In this document: piece by piece, positions 50,415 to 62,487 of the stretch | How the letters are laid out: each line of letters begins with the position of its first letter | Numbering within the stretch: position 1 is the first letter of the stretch | IMG/VR virus record: IMGVR_UViG_3300030085_002431 | Span: 38,448 to 102,447 of that record | DNA length: 64,000 bases | DNA from: a virus | Reading direction: 5' to 3' (one strand) | Notes under the pieces: model-generated | What the model was told of the DNA's origin: nothing | The model's input: the letters and a program-made list of their open reading frames with translations, nothing else | The model's database searches: none | Position numbers and translations under genes: made by a program

Positions 50415-50831
50415 ATGGAAGAAGAATTTTACGCAGTTATTAAATTAATTTCAGGGGAAGAGATATTCTCAAAGGTTTGTCCCTGTGAAGAGGAAGATAG
50501 GACAATCTTGCTTTTAGATAATCCAGTTACTATTGAGACATTTAATATGAGACAGATGGGAGTCTCTGGACTAAAGATTAACCCATGGATTAAATATACT
50601 GATGACTCAATGTTTGTTATGGACATGGATAGAGTTATTACTATGTCTGAAGTAACAGACGAAGAGATGCTCTTCATGTATGCTAAGTATATTAAAAAGA
50701 AAAATAAAAAACCCAGTGTCTCTAACAAACCATCAGAGAGTATGGGTTACTTAAAATCTATAACTGAAGCAAGAGTCTCCTTAGAAAAAATATTTAAAGA
50801 GTCTGGTGAAAAAGATCCTAAAGATACTTAA
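50415..50831 (+). CDS. Sm-like protein, paralogue 1
   Basis: The protein has 138 residues. The first ~85 have the phage LSm pattern: VIKLISGEEIFSKVCPCEEE (Sm1-like strands), then ILLLDNPVTIETFN, then INPWIKYTDDSMFVMDMDRV. A crystal structure of a putative cyanophage Sm-like protein of this kind has been reported, with a ring assembly. The C-terminal ~50 residues are a Lys-rich extension (KKKNKKPSVSNKPSES) not found in the other three paralogues here. A ring that binds RNA, as Hfq does, is the likely role. It starts 3 bases after uvsW. Confidence 0.7.
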   Translation: MEEEFYAVIKLISGEEIFSKVCPCEEEDRTILLLDNPVTIETFNMRQMGVSGLKINPWIKYTDDSMFVMDMDRVITMSEVTDEEMLFMYAKYIKKKNKKPSVSNKPSESMGYLKSITEARVSLEKIFKESGEKDPKDT

Positions 50832-57130: not shown

Positions 57131-57336
57131 CAAACGAACTGTATACTACAAATAGAAACGAACTAATGCACCAACGTCTACAGGCATGGTTACGTGAAAA
57201 TAAAAGTGATGACGTTGAATACCTTGGATATTATGATGATGTTCTTGGTCAACCGAACTATTGGTATCGCATTGGTAAATATGATGTGACTGTAGACTGT
57301 ATTGAAGACATTACCCTAGCAGAAGAAAATGATTGA
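57127..57336 (+). CDS. 69-residue protein between clamp loader genes
   Basis: The frame starts at GTG 57127, overlapping the gene 44 stop, with GGTGGAG about 12 bases upstream. It ends at 57336, overlapping the next gene by 8 bases. MHQRLQAWLRENKSDDVEYL with GYYDDVLGQPNYWYRIGKYD is an acidic, aromatic-rich alpha-beta sequence. I do not recognise it. It is not gp62, which is further on at 57970. Tight overlaps on both sides support a real gene within the replication operon. Confidence 0.62.
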   Translation: MTNELYTTNRNELMHQRLQAWLRENKSDDVEYLGYYDDVLGQPNYWYRIGKYDVTVDCIEDITLAEEND

Positions 57337-57622
57337 CATTAAACTTATTCGATTGATTACTGGTGAAGAAGTAGTTGCAGAAGTTCTTGAGGATACGGGA
57401 ACTACTGTTAAAGTCCAGAATGCCCTCGTAGTTATTCCTCAGAGTACTGGTGTTGGTTTTGCACCTTGGGCAACAGTTATCTCTAAGGACAATCCTGAGA
57501 TTGTGTTGAAGCAAGAACATATTGTCTACATTGTAGAAGTTCAAGAAGAAGTTGCTGGTAAATACAATGAGATGTTTGGCAGTAAACTTGTTACTCCAGC
57601 AGCTAAAAAACTCGTTTTGTGA
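57329..57622 (+). CDS. Sm-like protein, paralogue 2
   Basis: The protein has 97 residues and is close to the minimal phage Sm-like domain: DIKLIRLITGEEVVAEVLED, VKVQNALVVIPQS, FAPWATVISKDNPEIVLKQE and HIVYIVEVQEEVAGKYNEMF. The ITGEEVVAEV strand matches ISGEEIFSKV of paralogue 1, and the PWATV turn is shared. A ring-forming RNA-binding role is inferred. It lies in the clamp-loader cluster, upstream of regA. Confidence 0.75.
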   Translation: MIDIKLIRLITGEEVVAEVLEDTGTTVKVQNALVVIPQSTGVGFAPWATVISKDNPEIVLKQEHIVYIVEVQEEVAGKYNEMFGSKLVTPAAKKLVL

Positions 57623-58901: not shown

Positions 58902-59336
58902 ATGGGTAACCTCCAACGATGGAGTGCAGCAGACCTGCCTGCGCTCATGGAAAGAATCAACCGAAATAGTATCGGGATGGATGAGTACTTTGACCGTCTT
59001 TTTCACCTACATGAAAGTACCTCAAACTATCCGCCATATAACCTAGTGCAAGTTAATAATGTAGAGTCTAGACTTGAATTAGCACTAGCTGGATTCAAAA
59101 AAGAAGAAGTCAATGTCTACACGGAATACGGTAAACTCTTTATTGAAGGCAAGAAAGAGGATAAAGAAACACAGTCTTCATACGTCCACAAAGGTTTGGC
59201 TCAACGGTCGTTTACACGAACCTGGACTCTCAGTGACGACACGGAAATTGGATCAGTTAATTTTGAAAATGGGCTTTTAGAGATTGTCCTTAAAAAAGTA
59301 GTACCAGATCATCATGCTCGTAAAGATTGGTTTTGA
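58902..59336 (+). CDS. hsp20: Hsp20 small heat-shock protein
   Basis: The protein has 144 residues from ATG 58902 (site GGAGCTAG); an ATG at 58845 is in frame but has no site. The alpha-crystallin domain is visible as NYPPYNLVQVNNVESRLELA with LAGFKKEEVNVYTEYGKLFI, then FTRTWTLSDDTEIGSVNFEN and GLLEIVLKKVVP (the G-L-x-I-x-L motif). It is a cyanophage core gene, possibly a scaffold-stabilising or protein-protecting chaperone in late infection. T4 itself lacks it. Confidence 0.92.
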   Translation: MGNLQRWSAADLPALMERINRNSIGMDEYFDRLFHLHESTSNYPPYNLVQVNNVESRLELALAGFKKEEVNVYTEYGKLFIEGKKEDKETQSSYVHKGLAQRSFTRTWTLSDDTEIGSVNFENGLLEIVLKKVVPDHHARKDWF

Positions 59337-59376
59337 TTTCATAACAGTCTCTTTATAATTTAGTCACCGATGCTAC

Positions 59377-59404
59377 AAAAGTGTATCAACGTGATACACT
59401 TTTT
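59377..59404 (+). terminator. Intrinsic terminator after hsp20
   Basis: AAAAGTGTATC (59377-59387) and GATACACTTTT (59393-59403) form an 11-bp stem around AACGT, ending in a T-run. The A-run on the other side means it could work in both directions. Confidence 0.85.
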
Positions 59405-59408
59405 GCTA

Positions 59409-59414
59409 TATAAT
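59409..59414 (+). promoter_or_regulatory. Possible -10 element before micro-ORF 1
   Basis: TATAAT directly follows the hsp20 terminator and precedes the 27-codon ORF by 22 bases. No good -35 is seen at the right distance, so this is a weak call. Confidence 0.35.
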
Positions 59415-59435
59415 ATGTACTTTGGAGGACGACTT

Positions 59436-59519
59436 ATGAATCTCACAGCCGCCACTCTTACAATTGGGACCGCAATGACTCTTTTTTTCAACGGGTTCCT
59501 TGGGGGCGCATTCCCCTAA
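59436..59519 (+). CDS. 27-residue hydrophobic micro-protein
   Basis: ATG 59436 follows the strong site TTGGAGGA by 7 bases and encodes MNLTAATLTIGTAMTLFFNG followed by FLGGAFP. Almost the whole peptide could be one membrane helix. The quality of the ribosome-binding site is the main evidence for translation. Its size is like that of the small photosystem and cytochrome subunits of cyanobacteria, but I cannot match it to one. Its neighbours are ndhD and another membrane micro-ORF. Confidence 0.5.
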   Translation: MNLTAATLTIGTAMTLFFNGFLGGAFP

Positions 59520-59561
59520 TAGTCCACCCAGTATAGAGTCCTTTTACTTTACAACTCCATA

Positions 59562-59672
59562 ATGGCAATTTTCGCAACTATCGCATTTATTGGTTCAGCA
59601 ATTTTCGGAGCATATCAACTAACACCCAAAACAGCAAAAGTAACTGTTGATGACGAGTTACTTCCTTATTGA
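59562..59672 (+). CDS. 36-residue membrane micro-protein
   Basis: ATG 59562 opens MAIFATIAFIGSAIFGAYQL and then TPKTAKVTVDDELLPY before TGA. A single hydrophobic helix is followed by a short polar tail. No clear ribosome-binding site is seen upstream (CAACTCCATA). It is located between two terminators with the 27-residue ORF, so both may be translated from one short transcript. A function in thylakoid or cytoplasmic membranes is a guess. Confidence 0.45.
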   Translation: MAIFATIAFIGSAIFGAYQLTPKTAKVTVDDELLPY

Positions 59673-59699
59673 ATAAATAAAACTGAATATCGTCGCCGC

Positions 59700-59742
59700 A
59701 GGGGACCGACTGGCAAAATCCAGTTGAATCCCCTCTTTTTTT
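59700..59742 (+). terminator. Intrinsic terminator upstream of ndhD
   Basis: AGGGGA (59700-59705) pairs with TCCCCT (59729-59734), enclosing ACTGG (59709-59713) with CCAGT (59720-59724), followed by CTTTTTTT. It ends 25 bases before the ndhD start and isolates that gene from upstream transcription. Confidence 0.8.
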
Positions 59743-59752
59743 GTATTATAAT
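59724..59752 (+). promoter_or_regulatory. Sigma-70-type promoter for ndhD
   Basis: TTGAAT (59724-59729) and TATAAT (59747-59752) have a 17-base spacer. The -35 lies within the terminator stem. Transcription would begin near 59759, leaving a leader of under 10 bases before ATG 59768, which has no ribosome-binding site. Leaderless or near-leaderless expression is implied. Confidence 0.6.
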
Positions 59753-59767
59753 AGTTAGTGAAACTTT

Positions 59768-61327
59768 ATGAACCATACTATGCCTTGGTTGAGTTTATCT
59801 ATTCTAGTTCCTATCGTTGCTGCTTTATTCATCCCCTTCATTCCAGATAAAGGTGATGGAAAGGTTGTCAGATGGTATGGACTATCGACTACATTAGTTA
59901 CATTTTTAATTACTGTAGCAGCATATCTAACTGGATACGACCCAAGTGTAAGTGGTCTCCAGATGGTAGAGAAGGTTTCTTGGATTCCCTCACTGGGTCT
60001 GCAGTGGTCTGTGGGGGCAGATGGACTGTCTATGCCACTAATCCTTCTAACTAGTTTTATCACTAGTCTTGCTGCCCTTGCCGCATGGCCTCTACGATTC
60101 AAACCTAAACTATTTTACTTCCTTCTTTTGTTGATGGATGGTGGGCAGATTATGGTTTTTGCGGTACAGGATTTGATTCTTTTCTTCCTGTCATGGGAAC
60201 TAGAACTTGTTCCTGTTTACATGATGCTCTCTATTTGGGGAGGAAAGAAACGTCAATATGCTGCTACAAAGTTTATTATTTACACAGCAGGTAGTTCTTT
60301 GTTTATTCTTCTGGCAGGACTTGCCATGGGATTCTGGGCATCTAATGGTGCTCCAAACTTTGACTACACATATCTAATGCAGCAGGGATTCCCAAAGAGT
60401 TTTCAACTTTGGTGTTATGCTGGATTCTTAATTGCCTTTGGTGTAAAACTCCCTATTGTTCCATTACATACATGGTTACCTGATGCACACGGGGAAGCAA
60501 CTGCGCCAGTCCATATGCTTCTGGCAGGTATCCTTCTGAAGATGGGTGGATATGCACTGCTGCGATTTAACTGTCAACTTCTTCCAGAAGCACATACAGT
60601 ATTTGCACCTATCTTGATTGTCCTTGGTGCTGTGAATATCATTTATGCAGCATTGACATCATTTGCACAACGCAACCTCAAACGCAAGATTGCATATAGT
60701 TCTATCAGTCACATGGGATTTGTACTTATCGGTATTGGGAGTTATAGTGCTCTTGGAACCAGTGGTGCTATGCTCCAGATGGTAAGTCACGGTTTGATTG
60801 GTGCATCTCTGTTCTTCCTGGTGGGTGCAACCTATGACAGGACCCATACTCTTGAACTTGCTGAGATGGGTGGTGTGGGCAAGAGTATGAAGATTATGTT
60901 TGCAATGTGGGTTGTCTGTACAATGGCATCTTTGGCACTTCCAGGAATGAGTGGATTTGCAAGTGAACTGATGGTCTTCACTGGATTTGCAACTGACACA
61001 ATGTATAGTGTGCCGTTCCGTGTATTCATTTGTATTCTTTCTGCCATTGGTGTTATTCTTACACCCATTTATTTGCTATCGATGCTTCGTGAGATATTCT
61101 TTGGCAAAGAGAATAAGGAACTTGTCAATCATACAAACCTAGTTGATGCAGAACCAAGGGAAATATATATTATTAGTTGTCTTCTTGTTCCTATCATCGG
61201 ACTTGGAGTGTTCCCAAGAATTATGACTGATACATATCAGAGTTCTATCGAAGCACTAGTTGAAAGAGATAAGGCACCATTGGTAAGACCCCATCTAGTT
61301 AGAATGTATACACCCCCAACAGTATGA
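59768..61327 (+). CDS. ndhD: NAD(P)H dehydrogenase (NDH-1) subunit 4, host-derived
   Basis: The protein has 519 residues, full length for cyanobacterial NdhD. It is a proton-pumping antiporter-like subunit of the photosynthetic NDH-1 complex, with about 14 membrane helices. Key charged residues are present: Glu144 ([12 protein letters not shown]), Lys227 and His234 ([20 protein letters not shown]), Lys258 ([11 protein letters not shown]) and Glu400 ([12 protein letters not shown]). The C-terminal [20 protein letters not shown] is also typical. No frameshift or decay is seen. Its own promoter and terminators mark it as an inserted expression unit. It would act in cyclic electron flow or respiration in the thylakoid during infection. 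Confidence 0.92.
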
Positions 61328-61901: not shown

Positions 61902-61934
61902 ATTGCTAAAATTCTAAGAGGAAACGAGTGGTTT

Positions 61935-62264
61935 ATGGCTGTTAAACTTGCTGTATTGAAGTCTGGTGAAGACGTAGTTGCCGACATTAAAGAACTCTGT
62001 GACGAGCAGGATAATGTTGTAGCACTAGTGTTTAGTAACCCTGTTGTTGTGAAGTTGATTACTAATCAGACTTTACTTGAAAGTGAAAATGCTGATGAAT
62101 ATAAAGTAGCATTTTATCCTTGGCAACCACTCTCGGCGGAAAGAGATATTCCTGTTCGGTCTGACTGGATTGTTAGTATTTCTGAACCTATTGAACTTGT
62201 AAAAACATCTTATCAGGAGAAAATGAATGGAAGAAACAGCACTGATGGTAGCAGTCCTGAATAG
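61935..62264 (+). CDS. Sm-like protein, paralogue 3
   Basis: The protein has 109 residues from ATG 61935 (an in-frame start at 61884 would lie within the terminator). VKLAVLKSGEDVVADIKELC, VALVFSNPVVVKLI, VAFYPWQPLSAERDIPVRSD and WIVSISEPIELVKTSYQEKM repeat the phage Sm-like plan: (S/T)GE(E/D)VVA, a P-V-V strand, a PW turn and an I-V-S-I strand. The Lys/Asn-rich end overlaps the next gene by 38 bases. It lies just upstream of DNA polymerase. Confidence 0.75.
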   Translation: MAVKLAVLKSGEDVVADIKELCDEQDNVVALVFSNPVVVKLITNQTLLESENADEYKVAFYPWQPLSAERDIPVRSDWIVSISEPIELVKTSYQEKMNGRNSTDGSSPE

Positions 62265-62487
62265 TGGAATTGCTCTGATTACTGAGATTGAAGAAGTTGC
62301 TGCTTCAATTCCTGGTGAACCAGATTGTAAATTTATAAATCCCTTTGAAATAAAGGGTGACACCCTGGTTCCTTGGTTGTATGATTACACTGACGAACGC
62401 ACCGTCATGATTAGTTCTGACAGGATTCTTACTCTTGTAGAACCAAAGAAAACATTCCTTGAAAAGTACAAAGACCTTACGAAATGA
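62227..62487 (+). CDS. Sm-like protein, paralogue 4
   Basis: The protein has 86 residues with site AGGAGAAA before ATG 62227. MVAVLNSGIALITEIEEVAA, CKFINPFEIKGDTLVPWLYD and VMISSDRILTLVEPKKTFLE align with the other three but the GEE of the first loop is GIA. It directly follows paralogue 3 with a 38-base overlap, so the pair may form mixed rings. The stop overlaps the DNA polymerase start (ATGA). Confidence 0.72.
   Translation: MEETALMVAVLNSGIALITEIEEVAASIPGEPDCKFINPFEIKGDTLVPWLYDYTDERTVMISSDRILTLVEPKKTFLEKYKDLTK

Follow-up and report, generated by a model that had tools for sequence, protein, structure and literature searches.

An Operator-Controlled Microprotein Operon and a Structured, Late-Promoter-Bearing RNA Element Proposed for T4-like Marine Cyanophages

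Main Finding

The pocket between hsp20 and ndhD in the genome of a T4-like cyanophage probably holds an operator-controlled operon of two membrane microproteins, which would end in a structured RNA element bearing a late-promoter-like sequence; we put the probability of this reading at roughly 0.68. The pocket lies in a 64-kb window (the whole stretch of 64,000 nucleotides that was analysed), which is part of a 250,613-bp virus record. The gene content of the record is that of a T4-like cyanophage: the window contributes replication genes, hsp20 and ndhD, and psbA and psbD lie outside it. The RNA element is a more general finding than the micro-ORFs. The first-pass annotation of this DNA had described two ORFs, of 27 and 36 codons, between hsp20 and ndhD, enclosed by two strong terminators. 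Both ORFs are present (59436-59519 and 59562-59672, here ORF1 and ORF2), and one of the two terminators has to be given up. Its interpretation divides in a similar manner, as the overlooked small hydrophobic proteins stand and their tie to photosynthetic complexes does not.

The Locus and Its Neighbourhood

58902-59336: hsp20, the 5' flank of the micro-ORF pocket
59768-61327: ndhD, the 3' flank of the micro-ORF pocket

The usual gene order among the relatives of this locus is gp62, regA, hsp20, operator, ORF1, (ORF2), RNA element, two Sm-like/DUF6561 genes, and gp43. Upstream of the ORF1 cassette, hsp20 is found in 90 of 103 loci, and Sm-like/gp43 genes follow downstream in 77 of 80. Of the 80 loci with at least 2 kb of downstream sequence, 11 have ndhD within that distance, and ndhD is inserted in 15 of the 111 ORF1 loci, before the RNA element in some and after it in others. 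A partnership with ndhD as a general rule was rejected because the gene is rare and variably placed; the constant neighbour is hsp20. The cassette also occurs in a second setting, between hli/ferredoxin/thioredoxin genes and psbA, where ORF2 precedes ORF1 (S-RIM8, S-RS29 and two contigs, L153 and L186), and the RNA element is found without micro-ORFs in, for example, S-SM2, S-CAM1, Syn9, S-PM2, and P-SSM7. Since the element occurs without micro-ORFs and the gene contexts differ, the three parts are separable modules, and the adjacency of ndhD is incidental.

Several observations concern the surrounding genes. Four small proteins of the window (50415-50831, 57329-57622, 61932-62264, and 62227-62487) show a mutual relationship that is only just detectable; the second matches the solved protein 3by7 (E = 3.5e-7) as well as TIP60 entries, and the last two are members of the gene pair found after the RNA element in almost every locus of the hsp20 context. 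The genes adjoining the element in this context are related to 3by7-type proteins. Directly 5' of phage hsp20, two loci carry matches resembling the ROSE_3 thermoregulator (L004, 2498-2561; L006, 2513-2574), with sub-threshold scores of 27.9 and 24.9 bits against a cut-off of 43. In S-8S53 and S-8S56 (L130, L131), ndhD is preceded by a strong terminator and another unannotated hydrophobic ORF of 31 codons (MYALQVAGIVSLSCVAAMSLLYGEILLLHKI), which by eye is unrelated to ORF1 and ORF2.

The Structured RNA Element

59672-59679, plus strand: late-promoter-like sequence AATAAATA, overlapping the ORF2 stop codon
59685-59741, plus strand: structured RNA element, consisting of leader, outer stem, inner hairpin and T-tract
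59685-59699, plus strand: 5' leader of the element, GAATATCGTCGCCGC
59700-59705 with 59729-59734, plus strand: outer stem
59707-59713 with 59720-59726, plus strand: inner hairpin, loop CAAAAT
59747-59752, plus strand: -10 box TATAAT that closely follows the T-tract and belongs to the next transcription unit (here ndhD)

The element is best read as a late small RNA of about 57 nt that would also terminate the operon. Its parts follow each other in a fixed order, namely TAAATA, the leader GAATATCGTCGYCGC, a spacer, a covarying outer stem, the core hairpin CTGGC-AMAAT-CCAG, and a T-tract. The leader (GAAUAUCGUCGYCGC in RNA letters) is invariant across elements, and its first 11 bases are all predicted to be unpaired in 85 of 154. 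The T4 late promoter is TATAAATA. Among the 196 elements of the fetched loci, found by sequence pattern, the distance from the start of TAAATA to ATCGTCG is 15 nt in 147, with about a quarter differing, and a -10-like hexamer stands 4-5 nt past the T run in 156. A late-promoter-like sequence at a fixed distance from the leader is the arrangement expected if a late promoter of its own drives a phage small RNA (a search method for late promoters is given in PMC3037559).

The structure is conserved along with the sequence. Against a covariance model, the window copy scores 74.5 bits (E = 2.4e-19). The search covered 100 sources, made up of the window plus 99 loci of which nearly all had been chosen only by their operator, and gave 77 matches, the majority scoring over 65 bits. 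In an alignment fitted to the model, which leans towards structure, 8 of 10 pairs are changed on both sides, and none of 500 shuffles attains the covariation observed. The share of cells that pair is 97.8%, compared with 88.6% for shuffles and no more than 72% for slid controls. RNAalifold, applied to the first MAFFT alignment, gave compensatory changes in 6 of the 10 pairs. A DNA search of the isolate collection places the element in 292-309 records, many of them near-identical strains, with 233 covering at least 80% of the query. It is present at one copy per genome, including the genomes of the long-studied isolates Syn9, S-PM2, S-SM1, and S-RIM8.

The hairpin (-19.0 kcal/mol) with its T7 tract is that of an intrinsic terminator (59700-59741), so the terminator claimed for this site holds, with the addition that the site doubles as a conserved RNA element preceded by a late-promoter-like sequence. 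A terminator scan called neither this site nor the one before ORF1; the omission here is probably owing to the interrupted stem. It is possible, if rather doubtful in our judgement, that the element is an intrinsic terminator and nothing further, its leader being conserved for promoter clearance by the late polymerase and not as part of a small RNA. The hairpin and T-tract, the -10 box that so often follows them, and the position between transcription units would all fit such a terminator. However, a terminator needs neither the invariant 15-nt leader nor the nearly invariant core hairpin. Additionally, the leader occurs at one late-promoter-like site of the window and genome and is absent from the others, and it is retained where the hairpin differs (S-PRM1, S-CAM9, L153, L177, L186). 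These points speak against a terminator alone.

Other identities of the element were considered. In Rfam, no family matched at gathering score in the window or over the element at E <= 10, and the open-access papers on cyanophage RNAs describe CfrI, PhotoRC-II, wcaG, manA, and the glutamine riboswitch, not this element (PMC9964418, PMC2864571). PhotoRC-II was rejected, being separate and downstream of the element in P-SSM7, S-RIM2, and S-RS29. A coding sequence was dropped: read in the frame EYRRR, the variable position of the element would change synonymously, but the spacer length is not divisible by three and there is no fitting start codon. On the mRNA strand, with at most one mismatch allowed, the leader has no complement elsewhere in the phage genome. 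One near match lies in psbA, about 159 kb into the record and in sense orientation, and is within chance (a control pattern gave 6). Linkage gives no support to the Sm-like proteins as partners of the RNA, the next genes in the psbA context being unrelated.

Two further occurrences may be recorded. S-PRM1, after psbD, and S-CAM9 (L251, L252) retain nothing of the element but promoter and leader (TAAATA..TGAATATCGTCGYCGC); their hairpins are unrelated. A 5.16-Mb chromosome labelled as a 'Thermoplasmata archaeon' MAG (L240, CP070751.1) contains the cyanophage RNA element and a copy of ORF1 with its operator, probably a phage stretch that was binned or assembled into the MAG.

The Operator and the ORF1 Promoter

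59372-59398, plus strand: operator array, with half-site GCTACA at 59372-59377, then palindrome TGTATCA-ACG-TGATACA at 59382-59398
59409-59414, plus strand: -10 box TATAAT of the ORF1 promoter, 10 nt past the palindrome, with the operator centre near -31 and conserved spacing

The site between hsp20 and ORF1 is a candidate operator and promoter. The palindrome TGTATC-N5-GATACA stands 5' of 110 of the 111 ORF1 homologues, including homologues that were found without using the palindrome, and a further half-site usually precedes it, which is GATACA in many relatives and GCTACA or similar in others. After the palindrome come 8-10 nt, then (TA)TATAAT or a variant of it, ATGTA, a Shine-Dalgarno motif, and the start codon. 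The exact palindrome is single copy in the 250-kb genome. In three loci without ORF1 (L197, L239, L140), the same operator and promoter directly precede ORF2 or an ORF2-like peptide. The palindrome overlies the -35 region and may hold a repressor-like position, while the upstream half-site pair is centred near -41.5 and may hold an activator-like one.

The first-pass annotation had called this site a strong terminator as well. The stretch 59372-59405 does fold as an A/T-rich hairpin, at -12.4 kcal/mol. As a conserved function, an intrinsic terminator (59382-59405) was nevertheless rejected, because a T-rich tail follows the palindrome in only 31 of the 111 ORF1 loci, and the palindrome and -10 box are what is conserved instead.

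The Two Micro-ORFs

59424-59429, plus strand: Shine-Dalgarno GGAGGA of ORF1, 6 nt before the start
59436-59519, plus strand: ORF1, 27 aa, MNLTAATLTIGTAMTLFFNGFLGGAFP
59562-59672, plus strand: ORF2, 36 aa, MAIFATIAFIGSAIFGAYQLTPKTAKVTVDDELLPY, with one hydrophobic segment

Homologues were sought with profiles in the fetched phage contigs and isolate regions, with ORFs of 16-70 aa permitted. For ORF1, cyanophage contigs and isolates yielded 111 homologous loci with 69 distinct proteins, every one exactly 27 aa in length. The first 25 of these loci came from the collections by the RNA element or by DNA similarity of the region, and most others through the operator pattern; gathered by such different criteria, the family is therefore not the product of a single search strategy. 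The homologues of ORF2 number 63 and are 19-39 aa long, mostly 24; 57 of the first 62 share a locus with ORF1. Among pairs differing by at most 10%, pN/pS in frame is 0.30 for ORF1, versus 0.75 and 2.44 in the shifted forward frames, and 0.18 for ORF2, versus 0.92 and 1.63; one reverse frame mirrors the codon phase, as expected. The alternative forward frames are interrupted by stops in 97% and 47% of ORF1 sequences, and in 100% and 12% of ORF2 sequences. Because of the number of homologues, the fixed length of ORF1, and the frame-specific pN/pS, the two ORFs are more than chance. This conservation across phages argues that ORF1 and ORF2 are real genes under frame-specific purifying selection, and their predicted products are overlooked conserved small hydrophobic proteins.

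The excellent ribosome-binding site claimed for ORF1 is borne out, with a Shine-Dalgarno-like motif in 106 of the 111 homologues. In the 69 distinct sequences, M1, T4, G11, and F17 are invariant, positions 7, 11, and 15 read T/A/S-xxx-G-xxx-T/S (small-xxx-G-xxx-small), and charged residues are absent from 63. This pattern suits a packed membrane helix, although the hydrophobicity is borderline, with a Kyte-Doolittle window mean of 1.6 reached by 43% of distinct members and a value of 1.34 in the window copy. ORF2 is clearly hydrophobic (96% of distinct members reach the same mean), and is laid out as a single hydrophobic segment, LTPK, and a polar tail. The description of both as single-helix membrane peptides thus fits ORF2 well and is borderline for ORF1. 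A Shine-Dalgarno motif is found in none of the 63 ORF2 copies, which suggests coupling or a different initiation route, one of which its translation would need.

ORF1 is single copy in its own genome. That the pair falls below annotation cut-offs agrees with the isolates checked, as S-SCSM2R, RN05-S, S-RS29, and S-RIM8 have ORF1 with no CDS annotated there; S-B43, S-B05, RB11-B, S-8S29, and S-IOM18 also match by DNA. Neither family matches Pfam or NCBIfam, nor do the window sequences alone match PHROGs. A tblastn search with ORF2 against phages at E <= 10 was blank despite the existing relatives, because the query is too short for tblastn. In S-RIM4, S-RIM50, S-WAM2, S-H9-1, and S-RSM4, a DNA match is confined to the ORF2 part of S-RIM8 (L254), which suggests an ORF2-type microprotein without ORF1, in several cases without an annotated feature there.

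The peptides had been taken for possible small subunits or regulators of photosynthetic complexes. As accessory subunits of thylakoid complexes (NDH-1, PSII, cytochrome b6f), they would stabilise electron transport during infection, an explanation that we consider unlikely. Both are small and hydrophobic and adjoin ndhD here, phages are reported to carry ndhP and ndhD (PMC10452541), and the cassette among hli, ferredoxin, thioredoxin, and psbA keeps the idea open. Against it stand the low frequency of ndhD among the loci and the absence of any match to PsbX, PetN, NdhP, NdhQ, and similar subunits in Pfam, NCBIfam, and the PDB. At E <= 10, neither profile matched NdhP or NdhQ in the PDB set, which contains NDH-1L entries, so that both were within reach of the search. 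For any member of either family, no small-subunit family of PSII or cytochrome b6f was found in Pfam or NCBIfam at E <= 10, with HMMER filters dropping most matches above about 0.1. The best PDB match of ORF1 is a weak PsbT-like stretch of 15 residues, which at E = 0.06 is not significant, and the ORF2 profile gave no match of note. A photosynthetic role is possible but unsupported.

ORF1 could also be a host-takeover or membrane-disturbing peptide, of a size like that of small hydrophobic toxins or inhibitors, under tight operator control. Its 27 mostly uncharged residues with their packing pattern, the strong Shine-Dalgarno, the palindromic operator over the -35 region, and the early and replication genes as neighbours are consistent with this. 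However, Pfam and NCBIfam relate ORF1 to no known family, neither an antitoxin nor an antisense RNA was identified, and the RNA element mostly occurs without ORF1, and we hold this explanation to be improbable. Lastly, ORF1 is short, of exact length, and followed by a hairpin, like a leader peptide that controls a downstream gene by attenuation, but the next gene varies (ORF2, ndhD, Sm-like, gp214), a terminator usually lies between, and the conservation is spread over the hydrophobic pattern and not the C-terminus, which leaves very little room for such a role.

Proposed Mechanism

In the operator-controlled operon that we favour, a promoter of the early or middle type would express ORF1 and ORF2. 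Once translated, both peptides would most likely insert in the host membrane, and may act by packing against each other or against the helices of host membrane proteins. Early in infection, the RNA element would terminate the upstream unit, which is ORF1-ORF2, or hsp20 where the micro-ORFs are absent. Late in infection, a phage-modified RNA polymerase would start at the element and yield an independent small RNA of about 57 nt starting at GAAUAUCG. The 5' end of this RNA would be fixed, and its invariant leader would often be single-stranded.

A bolder form of this proposal is put forward tentatively. The element may be a trans-acting late small RNA of most marine T4-like cyanophages, with a leader that base-pairs to a host RNA or is bound by a protein; the microprotein operon may form a second host-takeover module, an optional one, by which host membranes are remodelled.

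Significance

Marine cyanophages are among the best-sequenced ocean viruses; two conserved microprotein families in them lack annotation, and a structured RNA lies in about 300 of their deposited records without an Rfam family. If the late small RNA is true, the element would be a core regulatory RNA of marine cyanophages. If the peptides act on host membranes, they would represent a new type of small takeover or photosynthesis-related gene. The presence of the RNA in long-studied isolates makes it testable at once with existing or new infection RNA data.

Comparison with Known Systems

ORF1 and ORF2 share with NdhP and NdhQ, the single-helix subunits of NDH-1L, the size class, a single hydrophobic helix, and, here, the vicinity of ndhD. 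They differ in that no solved NDH-1L chain is matched by either profile and the linkage to ndhD is not conserved. PsbT resembles ORF1 in length and in a 15-residue LLIGT-M--F stretch, whereas the E value, the lack of a Pfam match, and the lack of a conserved C-terminal part set the two apart. PhotoRC-II, wcaG, and manA (RF01717, RF01761, RF01745) are, like our element, structured RNAs of cyanophages, some of them upstream of psbA or chaperone genes (PMC2864571), but their sequence and structure are different from those of the element, which matches no Rfam family. NtcA boxes of the form GTA-N8-TAC occur in cyanophage promoters (PMC3037559), and, like our operator, present a palindrome with GTA/TAC half-sites before a -10 box. 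An NtcA box was rejected on its spacing, since the window and its relatives have GTA-N9-TAC, in a palindrome centred near -31.
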